Origin: Gallaecimonas sp. GXIMD4217
GTDB lineage: Bacteria; Pseudomonadota; Gammaproteobacteria; Enterobacterales; Gallaecimonadaceae
Assembly (NCBI RefSeq): GCF_038087665.1
Contig: NZ_CP149925.1
Coordinates: 2,790,870-2,854,869, forward strand
Direction of reading: 5' to 3'
DNA length: 64,000 bases
The notes beneath the pieces were generated by a model. That model was not told the DNA's origin, made no database searches, and saw only the letters and a program-made list of their open reading frames with translations. Positions 26,101 through 33,833 of the stretch are shown one piece after another; position 1 is the stretch's first letter, and every line of letters starts with the position of its first letter. Made by a program: the position numbers and the translations under genes.

Positions 26101-27408
26101 ATGAGCGATCAGATCCGCCCGCTGCTACGGGGGCAATACCGCACTGCTCCTGAGTTGGCCAAGCTCACCGGCTTGAGCCAACCAACCCTGTCCCGGCGGC
26201 TGCGCGAAATGGGAGACGAGCTGCTGCGGGTAGGAAAGGCCAGGGCCACCCGCTATTACCTGCGTCGCCCCGTCGCAGGGCAGGCGCAATGGCCCCTGTA
26301 CCGGGTCGATGTCTCGGGCAAGGCGGCGCTGCTCACCACCTTGCACGCCGTCTATCCCCAGGGCTACCTGGGTATTGCCCCTTCGGGCCAATTCGACTAT
26401 TTCGAGGGGTTGCCCTGGTGGCTGGCCGATATGAGGCCCCAGGGCTTTATGGGCCGGGCCCTGGCCAGGTCACTGGCGGCCGGCATGCCGCTGTCTCCCG
26501 ACCCCAGGGACTGGAGCGACGACGATACCCTGCTGGCACTGAGCCGGGAGCCCAGGGAGGCCATCGGCAACCTGCTGGTGGGAGACAAGGCCTATCAGCA
26601 GTGGCTGGCGGAAGCACCTCAACCAGTGGCCAAAGCCGCTTTGCCGGAGCTGGCCCGGCAGGCCATGGCCGGTATGCCGGCCGGTTCATCTGCCGGCGGC
26701 GAGCAGCCCAAGTTTGCCTGTTACCTGGAAGGTTGCCATTGCCTGGTCAAGTTTTCCGCTCCCCTGGACAATGCCCCGGCCCGGCGTTGGGGAGATCTGC
26801 TGGTGTGCGAGTCCCTGGCCCTGGCTCAGCTCGCCGAGGCGGGACTGAGCTGTGCCCAAAGCCGCCTGTGCCGCCTGGAGCGGCGGCAGTTCCTGATCAG
26901 CGAACGCTTCGATCGCCTGGGTGACCACGGCCGCCAGGGACTGGTTTCCCTGGCCATGCTGGACGCCCAATTCGTCGGAGAAGCCCTGTGGGAGTGGCCG
27001 GCGCTGGTAGCGGCCTTGGCAGACCAAGGTGTCGTCGACCTAGATGCGCTAGAAGACGTCACCAAGGCCTGGTGCTTCGGCCGCCTCATTGGCAACAGCG
27101 ACATGCACAACGGCAATCTTTCGTTCCTCTACGACGGGCGAAAGCCACTGGCCCTGGCACCTTTTTACGATATGTTGCCCATGGCCTTCGCCCCCAATCG
27201 CATGGGTGAAATGGCCACGGCCCCCCTTGATGCCAGCCTCGACGCCTCGGTCGGCGGGGAGTCTTGGCGCTGGGCTTGGCAGCAGGCCATGGCCTTCTGG
27301 CGCAGGGTCAGCGCCGACGACAGGATCAGCCCGGATTTCCGCCTGCTTGCCCAGGACCAGCAGGCGCTGCTGGACGGTTACAGGGACAGGATCTGGCGCA
27401 TGGCCTGA
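26101..27408 (+). CDS. yjjJ: HipA-family serine/threonine kinase, YjjJ/HipH type
   Basis: A 435-residue protein of the HipA toxin-kinase family. Residues 12-40 form a fused helix-turn-helix (TAPELAKLTGLSQPTLSRRL). The kinase part has the flexible loop SSAGGEQPKF (196-205), the catalytic loop GNSDMHNGN with Asp334, and the magnesium-binding FYDML with Asp357, so all active-site residues are present. In E. coli the homologue YjjJ/HipH is a toxin with no HipB neighbour. Here too no antitoxin gene is adjacent. The fused DNA-binding domain may replace HipB for autoregulation. The ATG has no Shine-Dalgarno sequence. Confidence 0.88.
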   Translation: MSDQIRPLLRGQYRTAPELAKLTGLSQPTLSRRLREMGDELLRVGKARATRYYLRRPVAGQAQWPLYRVDVSGKAALLTTLHAVYPQGYLGIAPSGQFDYFEGLPWWLADMRPQGFMGRALARSLAAGMPLSPDPRDWSDDDTLLALSREPREAIGNLLVGDKAYQQWLAEAPQPVAKAALPELARQAMAGMPAGSSAGGEQPKFACYLEGCHCLVKFSAPLDNAPARRWGDLLVCESLALAQLAEAGLSCAQSRLCRLERRQFLISERFDRLGDHGRQGLVSLAMLDAQFVGEALWEWPALVAALADQGVVDLDALEDVTKAWCFGRLIGNSDMHNGNLSFLYDGRKPLALAPFYDMLPMAFAPNRMGEMATAPLDASLDASVGGESWRWAWQQAMAFWRRVSADDRISPDFRLLAQDQQALLDGYRDRIWRMA

Positions 27409-31494: not shown

Positions 31495-33207
31495 ATGAGA
31501 ATCAAGATATTGGCGGCCACCATCGCGGCCCTGGCCACGGGCCAGGCCCTGGCGGCGCCCGAGGTGCACTACGACCAGTGCCGCCAGCCGTTCAGCTACG
31601 GCGGCAGCAGCTACCTGGGCACCACCGACAGGGACAACGCCGGGGTACAGTGGTGCTACCTGAAGACGCCCCAGCAGGGCTCAACCTGGGCCGTGGTGCG
31701 GGAAGAAAGCATACCGCTGCAAAAGACGGTGTCCGGCACCAACTGCGCCGCCACCAGCAGCTACCTGGGCGAAACCTTCCACGGCTGCTCCACCAGGGGC
31801 CACTCCACCTTCTGGTGCTACACCGACGACCAGGGCAGCAACTGGGAGAACTGCCAGGGCGAGGACGGCGGCGAGCTGCTCGGTCATGCCCAGCCCCAGG
31901 CCACGGCGCTGGTGGAGACGGTGGCGGTGGGTTCCTGCTTCAAGCAGCAGGGCAGCATGGGCCAGGCCATGGCCAGGCTGACCGCCAGCCAGCCGGATCT
32001 GTTCATGTGGCTGGGCGACAACATCTATGCCGACACCACCGACATCAGCACCATGCGCGCCAAGTACGACGCCAAGAAGGCCAACCCGGACTACCGGGCC
32101 TTCCTGGAGGCCGGCATCCCGGTGCTGGCCACCTGGGACGACCATGACTTCGGCGCCAACAACGCCGGCGACAACTACCCCAAACGGGCCGAGAGCCAGC
32201 AGGAGTTCCTGCGCCATTTCGATGTACCCGCCGACGATCCCCGCTACAAGGGCCAAGAAGGTATCTACAGCGCCCTGATCCAGGGCCCGGCCGGCAAGAG
32301 GGTACACAGCATCATGCTGGACGCCCGCTACCACAGATCCCCCACCTTCTCCAGCTACGGCCAGTGCCGGGGTGACGCCTCCACCCTACTTGGCGAGACC
32401 CAGTGGGCCTGGCTGGAGGCGGAGCTGGCCAAGCCCAGTGAGATCAAGATCATCGCCTCCGGCATCCAGGTGCTGCCGCCGCTGCATCGGGAGCGCAGCC
32501 TGAGCAGTTACTGCGCCTATGGCAACGGCCAGGCCTTCAACGCCGCCGTGGAAAGCCTCGGCGAGAGCGCCCTGTCCGGCACCAGCTACGAGTCCTGGGC
32601 GGAGATGCCCCAGCAGCGCGAGCGGCTGCTGCGCCTGGTGCAGAAGGCGATCAACGACGGCAAGGCCAAGCAGGTGATCTTCGTCAGCGGCGACCAGCAC
32701 TGGGGCGAGCTGCTGCAAAAAGACATCCCCGCCAGCACCGAGCACGGCCCGGCGGTGACGGTATTCGAGGTGACCGCCTCCGGCTTCGGCCAGAACTGGC
32801 CCTATGATGTGCCGAACCCGAACCGGCTGCCGGTCTGGGCCGACAGCCAGGGCGACGGCAACTACGGCCAGCAGTGCGTGCTGCCCTTCAAGTACCAGGG
32901 GATCAGCTACGATTCCTGCACCAGCCGCGACCATGACAGGCCCTGGTGCTACACCCAGGTGGACGGGAATGGTAATGGCATCGAGGGCCAGTGGGGCAAC
33001 TGCGCCCCCGAAGGTGCCGCCATCCCCACCGGGCTGGTGGGCAAGGTGCCGGCTGAGCTGGGCGCCGTATCCACCGCCGACCGCCACCTGATCAACAAGA
33101 CCGGCAGCAACTACGGCCAGATAGACATCGACTGGCAGCAGCGGCGGATCCGCCTGTCCATCCAGAGCGAGACCGAGGAAGTGGCGTCCACCCTGGTGGC
33201 CTTCTAA
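31495..33207 (+). CDS. secreted PhoD-type phosphatase with fibronectin type II-like modules
   Basis: A 570-residue exported enzyme with a signal peptide (1-21). The central PhoD-type metallophosphatase domain shows VGSCFKQQ (about 145), MWLGDNIYAD (171-180), TWDDHDFGANNAG and SGDQHWGEL. Two cysteine modules precede it and one follows. Module b (Cys84, Cys98, Cys108, Cys120) and module c (Cys461, Cys475, Cys485, Cys503) follow the spacing C-x2-PF-x-Y-x7-C-x8-WC of fibronectin type II domains. Module a (Cys29, Cys54) lacks two cysteines. FN2 modules bind collagen-like ligands in animals, so here they may tether the enzyme to a substrate. A strong AGGAGGGG site precedes the start. Confidence 0.85.
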   Translation: MRIKILAATIAALATGQALAAPEVHYDQCRQPFSYGGSSYLGTTDRDNAGVQWCYLKTPQQGSTWAVVREESIPLQKTVSGTNCAATSSYLGETFHGCSTRGHSTFWCYTDDQGSNWENCQGEDGGELLGHAQPQATALVETVAVGSCFKQQGSMGQAMARLTASQPDLFMWLGDNIYADTTDISTMRAKYDAKKANPDYRAFLEAGIPVLATWDDHDFGANNAGDNYPKRAESQQEFLRHFDVPADDPRYKGQEGIYSALIQGPAGKRVHSIMLDARYHRSPTFSSYGQCRGDASTLLGETQWAWLEAELAKPSEIKIIASGIQVLPPLHRERSLSSYCAYGNGQAFNAAVESLGESALSGTSYESWAEMPQQRERLLRLVQKAINDGKAKQVIFVSGDQHWGELLQKDIPASTEHGPAVTVFEVTASGFGQNWPYDVPNPNRLPVWADSQGDGNYGQQCVLPFKYQGISYDSCTSRDHDRPWCYTQVDGNGNGIEGQWGNCAPEGAAIPTGLVGKVPAELGAVSTADRHLINKTGSNYGQIDIDWQQRRIRLSIQSETEEVASTLVAF

Positions 33208-33254: not shown

Positions 33255-33833
33255 TTACTCCATGGCCTGGACCTTGCCGCCACCCACTATGGACTTCTGC
33301 ACCCTGGGGCTGCCCTGGTAGAGCACGGTGCCGCCCTGGGCGATATTGGCATTGAGCTGTTGCTCGGCCTTGACCCTTACCATGCCGCCACCGAACAGGC
33401 TGGCCACCACCTGGCGGCTGCTGAGGGCGGTGGCGTCCACCAGGCCGCCGTTGTTCAGGGACAGGCTGAACTGGTGCACCGGCAGGAAGCCGGGCTTGAT
33501 CACCACCTCGCCACCATTGACCAGCTGCAGGCCATTGAGGGTGCTGGTGCCTATCTCCAGATCCAGCTGCTCGGTGCAATATTCGCCGCAGCCGACCACC
33601 AGGGTACCGTCCACCACCTCGGCGCTGAGCTTGGCCAGGCCGCCCGGCTCGCCCACGGCGTGCAGGTAGTGTTTGCCGTAGGGCAGGATCACCACCCGGC
33701 CGGCGGTCTTGATGGCCACCTTCTGGAAGGCCGGCATGGCCAGGGTCCTGTCGGTAGCGCCCTGGGAGTCTTCGGTGGAGGCGCAACCACCCAGCAGCAG
33801 GGCGGCCAAGCAGAGTTGCAGCAAACGGGTCAT
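33255..33833 (-). CDS. GIN-domain (DUF2807-like) lipoprotein
   Basis: A 192-residue predicted lipoprotein. The lipobox is LLGGC with Cys17, followed by AST. The mature part is a repetitive right-handed beta structure: VAIKTAGRVVILPYG, LQLVNGGEVVIKPG, LSLNNGGLVDATALS, VASLFGGGMVRVKA and SIVGGGKVQAME. These N/G-G turn repeats are typical of the GIN/DUF2807 adhesin-head-like domain. Two cysteines in VGCGEYC may form a disulfide. Function is unknown; an envelope role is inferred. It is divergent from the YgjP-like gene. Confidence 0.75.
   Translation of the reverse strand: MTRLLQLCLAALLLGGCASTEDSQGATDRTLAMPAFQKVAIKTAGRVVILPYGKHYLHAVGEPGGLAKLSAEVVDGTLVVGCGEYCTEQLDLEIGTSTLNGLQLVNGGEVVIKPGFLPVHQFSLSLNNGGLVDATALSSRQVVASLFGGGMVRVKAEQQLNANIAQGGTVLYQGSPRVQKSIVGGGKVQAME

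Follow-up and report, generated by a model that had tools for sequence, protein, structure and literature searches.

A PhoD-type enzyme encoded by Gallaecimonas sp. GXIMD4217 carries three fibronectin type II (FN2) modules, two of them in tandem ahead of the catalytic domain and the third within that domain. This protein, described here as PhoD-FN2, is real, conserved and unusual, and is to be seen as a variant within the PhoD family, not as a system of a new kind. It is probably, and here a moderate degree of confidence is intended, a secreted PhoD-type metallophosphodiesterase or phosphatase with built-in FN2 modules that dock on a large ligand or surface. The gene lies in what is called here 'the window', i.e., the whole 64,000-nucleotide stretch of DNA that was analysed.

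The gene and its protein

The PhoD-FN2 open reading frame spans 31495..33207 of the window (+ strand, as are all of the features of the protein given below) and encodes 570 amino acids, as seen from its translation and from Pfam matches to PhoD and to fn2. An earlier, sequence-only reading had described this frame as a PhoD-type phosphatase with FN2-like modules, and re-reading of the sequence confirms the ORF, its coordinates and the cysteine positions that had been given. The combination of domains is borne out as well. That is, Pfam PhoD (PF09423) matches residues 144-410 with an E-value of 1.3e-20 (74.3 bits versus a cut-off of 27), and fn2 (PF00040) matches the protein as a whole with an E-value of 6.8e-13 (48.8 bits versus a cut-off of 22.2), in three stretches of which residues 461-503 are the best. 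An NCBIfam scan of the protein gave sub-threshold matches throughout. With whole-protein phmmer against PDB sequences, the FN2 part finds MMP-2, MMP-9, fibronectin and PDC-109, and the catalytic part finds the PhoD structure 2YEQ.

Judged by eye, using the sequence together with the family alignment, residues 1-20 (31495..31554) look like a Sec-type signal peptide, one which lacks a twin-arginine, and this stretch is the most variable part of that alignment (mean identity 0.27). The protein thus is presumably exported by Sec, with its disulfides formed outside of the cytoplasm. A path for leaving the cell is present, as a gene for GspD, the type II secretin, was found above cut-off in five of five genomes tested.

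The three FN2 modules

FN2 is mainly an animal domain, and as a module it is short, about 42 residues. Its four cysteines are termed here C1 through C4, and positions within modules are given relative to these. Module b (residues 84-120; 31744..31854), as delimited by conservation counts and by BLASTP to module c, has all four, at C84, C98, C108 and C120. Module c (residues 461-503; 32875..33003), as delimited by Pfam, phmmer and conservation counts, likewise has four, at C461, C475, C485 and C503. The spacings that had been claimed for these two modules (Cys84-Cys120 and Cys461-Cys503) are just as had been read, including the pattern C-x2-PF-x-Y-x7-C-x8-WC of module c; the Pro-Phe pair of FN2 is absent from module b. 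Module a (residues 29-68; 31579..31698), which is based on a Pfam fn2 match at residues 29-58, on conservation counts, and on a model of modules a and b together as searched with Foldseek, has only C1 (C29) and C3 (C54).

The sequence-only reading had called module a a degenerate third copy, a description which can be made precise, as the cysteines that it lacks are C2 and C4. Upon alignment using the Trp and Tyr markers, the C2 place is occupied by T43 in 27 of 27 rows and the C4 place by V68 in 26 of 28. The FN2 disulfides of Endo180 are 187-213 and 201-228, which is to say C1-C3 and C2-C4 (PMC4635314). As C2 and C4 are partners there, module a appears to have lost exactly one FN2 disulfide pair while keeping the other. 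Of the FN2 pocket it keeps, in addition, the first Tyr and the two Trp.

Conservation across the family is high at these positions. The four cysteines of modules b and c are present in 28 of 28 rows of the family alignment, and no row that covers them (27 or 28 of 28 rows) departs from the ten cysteines of the three modules, from the Trp that precedes C3, or from the Tyr that in every module directly follows C3. Three residues ahead of C4, a Trp is found in 28, 26 and 28 of 28 rows for modules a, b and c, respectively.

A profile search against FN2 had been proposed as a check, and it returns the above-noted match over the curated cut-off. The N-terminal pair of modules, taken alone, barely passes (22.3 bits versus 22.2), with module a as its best stretch. 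Pfam fn2 nevertheless is found in the N-terminal pairs of all 24 family members scanned at E-values up to 1, the Gallaecimonas protein having 1.3e-4 and the best 2.5e-8. Against PDB sequences, phmmer matches of the N-terminal 107 residues are weak (PDC-109, E 0.032), and those of residues 451-507, containing module c, include MMP-2 at 7e-14 as summed over three repeats, with 9.6e-5 for the best single repeat. The modules also resemble one another, b and c with 33% identity over 49 columns (BLASTP) and a and c with 42% over 36 columns. Given these Pfam, phmmer, family-wide and module-to-module matches, the modules are real FN2 modules and not a chance pattern of cysteines.

Membership in the kringle family (PF00051) was considered as well, and rejected on score, with 13.5 bits versus a cut-off of 34.3 for the N-terminal pair. 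Sub-threshold kringle matches are seen in 10 of 24 N-terminal pairs, and kringles match residues 451-507 with E-values of 0.19 or worse (phmmer, PDB). Kringles have six cysteines, and the modules here instead have four. The motif PWCYT...W..C of modules b and c, which resembles kringles, gives these modules the look of an FN2/kringle blend.

Module c as an insertion in the catalytic domain

FN2 modules had been proposed for both ends of the protein. Two of them, a and b, do indeed precede the catalytic domain, but module c is internal to that domain rather than terminal. The main part of the PhoD domain covers about residues 141-453 (31915..32853), based on the Pfam match at 144-410, conserved columns and mapping to 2YEQ. 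It is followed by some 83 inserted residues (about 454-536; 32854..33102), as defined by alignment with PhoD-only relatives and containing module c, and then by the last strands of PhoD (residues 537-570; 33103..33204), which are assigned from that same alignment and from strands in the model. With boundaries that are those of the alignment, this insertion is absent from 27 of 27 aligned PhoD-only relatives (27 of 53 such loci). The segment NRLPVWAD lies on one side of it and the strand SNYGQIDIDW on the other, and the PhoD-only relatives continue straight from the one to the other.

Domain counts agree. Of the 47 rows of the family alignment designated A1, 25 match Pfam fn2, just as many as have the full architecture, and all 47 match PhoD at E-values up to 0.01. 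Among the 27 PhoD-only proteins, fn2 is found in none at E-values up to 1 and PhoD in all 27.

MMP-2 and MMP-9 bear FN2 inside of their catalytic domains, as is the case with module c here. The difference is that those enzymes are zinc proteases with three FN2 modules in tandem, whereas here a phosphodiesterase has one within the domain and two ahead of it. Among PDB sequences, it is the MMP-2 and MMP-9 repeats that module c matches best, and of the gelatin-contact residues only some are kept. The FN2 insertion of human MMP9 has been placed at the chordate node (PMC1654190).

Predicted fold

A model of the full protein, built from 47 sequences, has a mean pLDDT of 88.7 and a pTM of 0.81. Its top Foldseek match in the PDB is PhoD 2YEQ (E 3.1e-14), a loose superposition with a TM-score of 0.43 on the query and an rmsd of 8.4 Å. 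Purple acid phytases and sphingomyelinase-like phosphodiesterases come next, and MMP-2, MMP-9, the mannose receptor and PDC-109 are found lower in the list, with E-values of 0.005-0.06.

Five models of the N-terminal pair have mean pLDDT values of 91.9, 88.9, 69.3, 57.9 and 57.5, i.e., two of the five are confident. Structure prediction was another check that had been proposed, and an FN2-like fold is what is seen. Foldseek aligns the pair with factor XII FN2 over 53 columns at 2.4 Å, and the TM-score is 0.72 if scaled to the target and 0.40 if scaled to the query. The first 28 PDB matches listed are all to FN2- or kringle-domain proteins, with weak E-values, the best being 4.3e-3 and none falling under 0.001.

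The catalytic domain

PhoD-like enzymes are characterized by phosphodiesterase/phosphomonoesterase activity with Fe3+ and Ca2+. The putative metal ligands here are C148, D175, Y178, D215, D216, N222, N223, D400 and H402. In PhoD of B. subtilis, the substitutions C180A, D265A, N271A, N272A and D436A abolish activity, and D207A and D266A strongly reduce it (PMC4223295). The equivalents here are C148, D215, N222, N223 and D400, and then D175 and D216, with the mutated places taken from alignment to 2YEQ using an offset of 56 inferred from Cys180, and the Tyr and His places taken by alignment. Every one of the 47 rows of A1 has C148, D175, Y178, D215, D216, H217 and H402, and conservation is at least 90% for N222 and D400. 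N223 is invariant within the PhoD-FN2 family, with Asp at that place in PhoD-only rows, a change from Asn to Asp which likewise has been reported (PMC4223295). As the metal ligands of PhoD are kept, activity is likely. That is, PhoD-FN2 probably is an active enzyme of the Cys-ligand subfamily.

Phospholipase D (PLD) of Streptomyces chromofuscus belongs to that same subfamily of the PhoD family (PMC4223295). The B. subtilis and S. chromofuscus enzymes share with PhoD-FN2 the catalytic domain, a Cys-type ligand set, and export, and differ in that here the domain is broken by the FN2-bearing insertion of about 83 residues, with its last strands still to follow. Some members of this superfamily have cap domains (PMC4223295), and in B. 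subtilis PhoD a C-terminal helix acts as a cap. Another marine bacterial PhoD, CamPhoD of Cobetia amphilecti, also has a fibronectin-type module ahead of PhoD (PMC6950083). The module of CamPhoD, however, is of fibronectin type III and not FN2.

Family and distribution

A pattern scan of genome contigs, using one genome per species over 84,980 species, yielded 571 relatives, and the 80 best ones were retained. Among these 80 are 27 relatives (L002-L028) which share the whole architecture, with 59-71% identity in their best segment. One of these (L025) begins at a contig end and so is without module a. The remaining 53 match over the PhoD core only, with identities of at most 41%. By label, the 27 consist of 22 from Pseudoalteromonas along with Thalassomonas, Marinagarivorans, an uncultured member of Pseudomonadales, and two unclassified gammaproteobacterial metagenome-assembled genomes (MAGs), with carriers labelled as belonging to Cellvibrionaceae, Colwelliaceae and Pseudoalteromonadaceae. 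Mean identity to the Gallaecimonas protein, leaving out L025, is 0.57 for module a, 0.56 for module b, 0.60 for module c, 0.70 for the PhoD core and 0.30 for the linker.

Bacterial FN2 otherwise is rare among the genomes sampled, in keeping with the view that FN2 on a bacterial phosphatase is unusual. These genome counts use E-values up to 0.001 and samples which overlap, and scoring in the larger searches did not extend to all first-look candidates in all genomes. With those provisos, fn2 was found in 1 of 59 genomes of relatives, in 2 of 394 from the order, in 1 of 321 from the class and in 1 of 299 from the phylum, with the single genome being Gallaecimonas's own in the first and last two cases. 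It was found as well in 6 of 14 genomes picked via loci, the six being known carriers that were included deliberately, and in 45 of 108 genomes of one genus, that of the second carrier from the order. This genus is inferred to be Pseudoalteromonas, as the match in one of its members (G416) shares contig number and coordinates with that in the P. luteoviolacea genome of L018. There was no positive among 199 genomes from the phylum of a planctomycete nor among 247 from the phylum of a Bacteroidota genome, two samples which included no carrier as a control, though the same profile gave matches in the other samples.

Reading of 37 FN2 loci (L082-L118) found that all align with the PhoD-FN2 gene, representing 35 distinct genes, 20 of which already were among the relatives from the pattern scan; no bacterial FN2 outside of the PhoD-FN2 architecture was seen among these 37. 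The other 15 of the 45 carriers from the one genus comprise 14 with open frames of 569-659 amino acids and one (G463) with 118 only. No report of an FN2-bearing bacterial PhoD was found in the open-licence literature searched on FN2 or PF00040 in bacteria, though automatic domain databases probably list these proteins already. FN2 assignments in Plasmodium proteins are mentioned (PMC10892792), and the PF00040 that appears in a 2005 kinase paper is printed there for WD repeats and thus was set aside.

In the family tree, which has long outgroup branches that were flagged by the program, the Gallaecimonas protein groups with a MAG, Marinagarivorans and the uncultured Pseudomonadales (support 96/94), apart from the Pseudoalteromonas rows. 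The patchy distribution would fit with transfer between lineages, to which loss is the alternative. Two Pseudoalteromonas records from a plasmid search, 1.2-1.3 Mb in length, hold the whole gene, and nine other matches there are partial. A phage or viral origin was considered and dismissed. That is, 29 pattern matches in viral contigs include no relative, phage records give one partial PhoD match covering 22% of the query, and PhoD proteins of viruses, as matched by fold, have nothing visible to tell about FN2. Composition likewise was considered as an indication of recent import, but as the G+C near the gene (0.66-0.69 per kb) resembles that of its surroundings (0.58-0.70), no recent arrival is shown.

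Genomic context

A DEAD-box helicase gene precedes the PhoD-FN2 gene in the window and a YgjP-like gene follows. The other four genomes of the same genus have no match to fn2 or to PhoD; the PhoD control matched in 3 of 14 named genomes. In two of these four congeners as fetched (L130 and L132), genes that by eye are for a thiol peroxidase-like protein and a large SbcC-like ATPase are found beside the helicase, and a relative of the YgjP-like gene is found elsewhere in L130. Gallaecimonas's own genome has, outside of the window, an apparent second PhoD gene (G000:C1:1773930-1775465), with a stronger score of 147.5 bits and two matches in a frame of 776 amino acids. Two neighbors may be described in passing. 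At 26101-27408 (+ strand) there is a HipA-like kinase-domain protein (Pfam HipA_C, E 2.8e-23) with, by eye, an N-terminal helix-turn-helix, and at 33255-33833 (- strand), convergent with the PhoD-FN2 gene, there is a small DUF2807 (head GIN domain) protein, of which no relative was found in the flanks of 12 other loci compared.

A conserved operon was looked for over 13 loci and rejected, with neighbors held in common by two to four loci at most, mostly among near relatives, and by none together with the window. Membership in the Pho regulon fared similarly. The Pho box motif is CTGTCA-N5-CTGTCA, and when the 300 bases ahead of each of 27 genes were scanned for best matches, no site proved to be shared by all. 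In the window the top match is 10/12, as reached by 1 of 60 shuffles, and L009, L010 and L026 share another 10/12 site on the other strand (1, 1 and 2 of 60 shuffles). Context therefore gives no function, as no neighbor recurs in more than four of the 13 loci and there is no consistent Pho box. A promoter scan found no promoter-like site, and two terminator-like sites were seen versus 1.0 in shuffles.

What the modules may bind

As they are more conserved than the linker, the FN2 pockets presumably bind some ligand. Comparison with two better-known kinds of FN2 bears on what that ligand might be. With Endo180, mutating Y193, R206/D208 or Y219 abolished gelatin binding (PMC4635314). The Y193 equivalent, a Tyr at C1+6, is found here in 27 of 27 rows of module a, 28 of 28 of module b and 22 of 28 of module c. 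A Tyr at C3+6, the place of Y219, is found in none of the three modules across the 28 rows of the family alignment. At other places from C3+1 up to C4, 6 of 28 rows have a Tyr in module a and 2 of 28 have one in module c. Nor is the Arg/Asp pair of the C2-C3 loop conserved in any module of that alignment. C2-C3 spacing is 11, 10 and 10 in modules a, b and c versus 12 in Endo180, and C1-C2 spacing is 14 in all three, as in Endo180. One of the three features of gelatin- or collagen-binding FN2 thus is kept, the Tyr at C1+6.

PDC-109, a bovine seminal protein of the binder-of-sperm kind, consists instead of a tandem pair of FN2 modules which bind phosphorylcholine, with pocket residues that include Y30, W47 and W58 (PMC2823774). 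In modules a, b and c, respectively, the equivalents of Y30 are Y35, Y90 and Y467, those of W47 are W53, W107 and W484, and those of W58 are W65, W117 and W500. The first Tyr and both Trp therefore are present here as there, giving three of the four members of the phosphorylcholine-binding set (Y30, Y54, W47 and W58), with the equivalent of Y54 missing. PDC-109 shares as well the short C2-C3 spacing of modules b and c, but PhoD-FN2 is without the second pocket Tyr and PDC-109 is without an enzyme domain.

Competing explanations

Under the docking explanation favored here, the two tandem FN2 modules ahead of the catalytic domain, the first without one of its disulfides, along with the third in the loop ahead of the last strands, would keep the enzyme attached to some surface or large ligand outside of the cell, which may be a protein matrix, a membrane or phospholipid particle, or a glycan. 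So held, the enzyme would release phosphate or cut phosphodiesters at that surface. Docking via FN2 modules is proposed by analogy with the FN2 inserts of MMP-2 and MMP-9, which hold gelatin. What may be said against docking is that the modules could be purely structural, i.e., elements of stability or of an active-site cap which have no ligand, with module c shaping the mouth of the active site much as does the C-terminal helix of B. subtilis PhoD. Module c does sit within the catalytic domain, the architecture is kept with limited variation in length, and cap domains are known in the superfamily (PMC4223295). The aromatics that line the animal FN2 pocket, however, are largely invariant, beyond the cysteines, and two more modules are found outside of the catalytic domain on a linker that is poorly conserved (mean identity 0.30), such that this purely structural role seems quite improbable.

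Two narrower explanations specify the ligand. In one, improbable as well if somewhat less so, the choline head groups found on membranes of eukaryotes are what the modules bind, as with PDC-109, and PhoD acts on those lipids as a phospholipase D or phosphodiesterase, as with S. chromofuscus PLD. S. chromofuscus PLD shares with PhoD-FN2 its family and Cys ligand (C148 here; PMC4223295), the Y30, W47 and W58 equivalents of PDC-109 are present (PMC2823774), the C2-C3 spacing of 10 in modules b and c equals that of PDC-109 module a, and in the PDB it is PDC-109 (E 0.032) that the N-terminal pair matches best, albeit weakly. Yet the second phosphate-contacting Tyr (Y54 of PDC-109, C3+6) is missing from its place in all three modules, and the two pocket Trp do not indicate choline as gelatin-binding FN2 have them too. 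The other, which takes up the collagen-like or matrix ligand of the sequence-only reading, is that the modules bind a collagenous protein of marine animals, and it is the most doubtful of the explanations considered here. Specific support for a ligand of that kind is lacking. The Y193 equivalent is kept, but a Tyr at the place of Y219 is missing from every module and the Arg/Asp loop is shorter and not conserved, and no collagenase or matrix protein is found by Pfam among the ten window neighbors scanned. This is despite the best PDB matches of module c being the gelatin-binding repeats of MMP-2, MMP-9 and fibronectin (PMC4635314), and despite retention of the first essential Tyr.

Implications

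A more far-reaching scenario, which as a whole is rather unlikely, is that marine gammaproteobacteria acquired the animal FN2 domain, put it three times on one phosphodiesterase, once inside of the catalytic domain, and spread the result between genera, thereby fastening a phospholipase- or phosphatase-like enzyme to eukaryotic membranes or matrix, as an independent parallel of the gelatinase design.

The PhoD-FN2 family matters in any event as a bacterial counterpart of the gelatinases, in whose catalytic domain FN2 is likewise inserted. A bacterial family of phosphodiesterases having three FN2 modules is, in addition, a natural test of FN2 binding beyond that of collagen. For marine bacteria, the family suggests a route by which phosphorus may be mined from particles rather than from solution.
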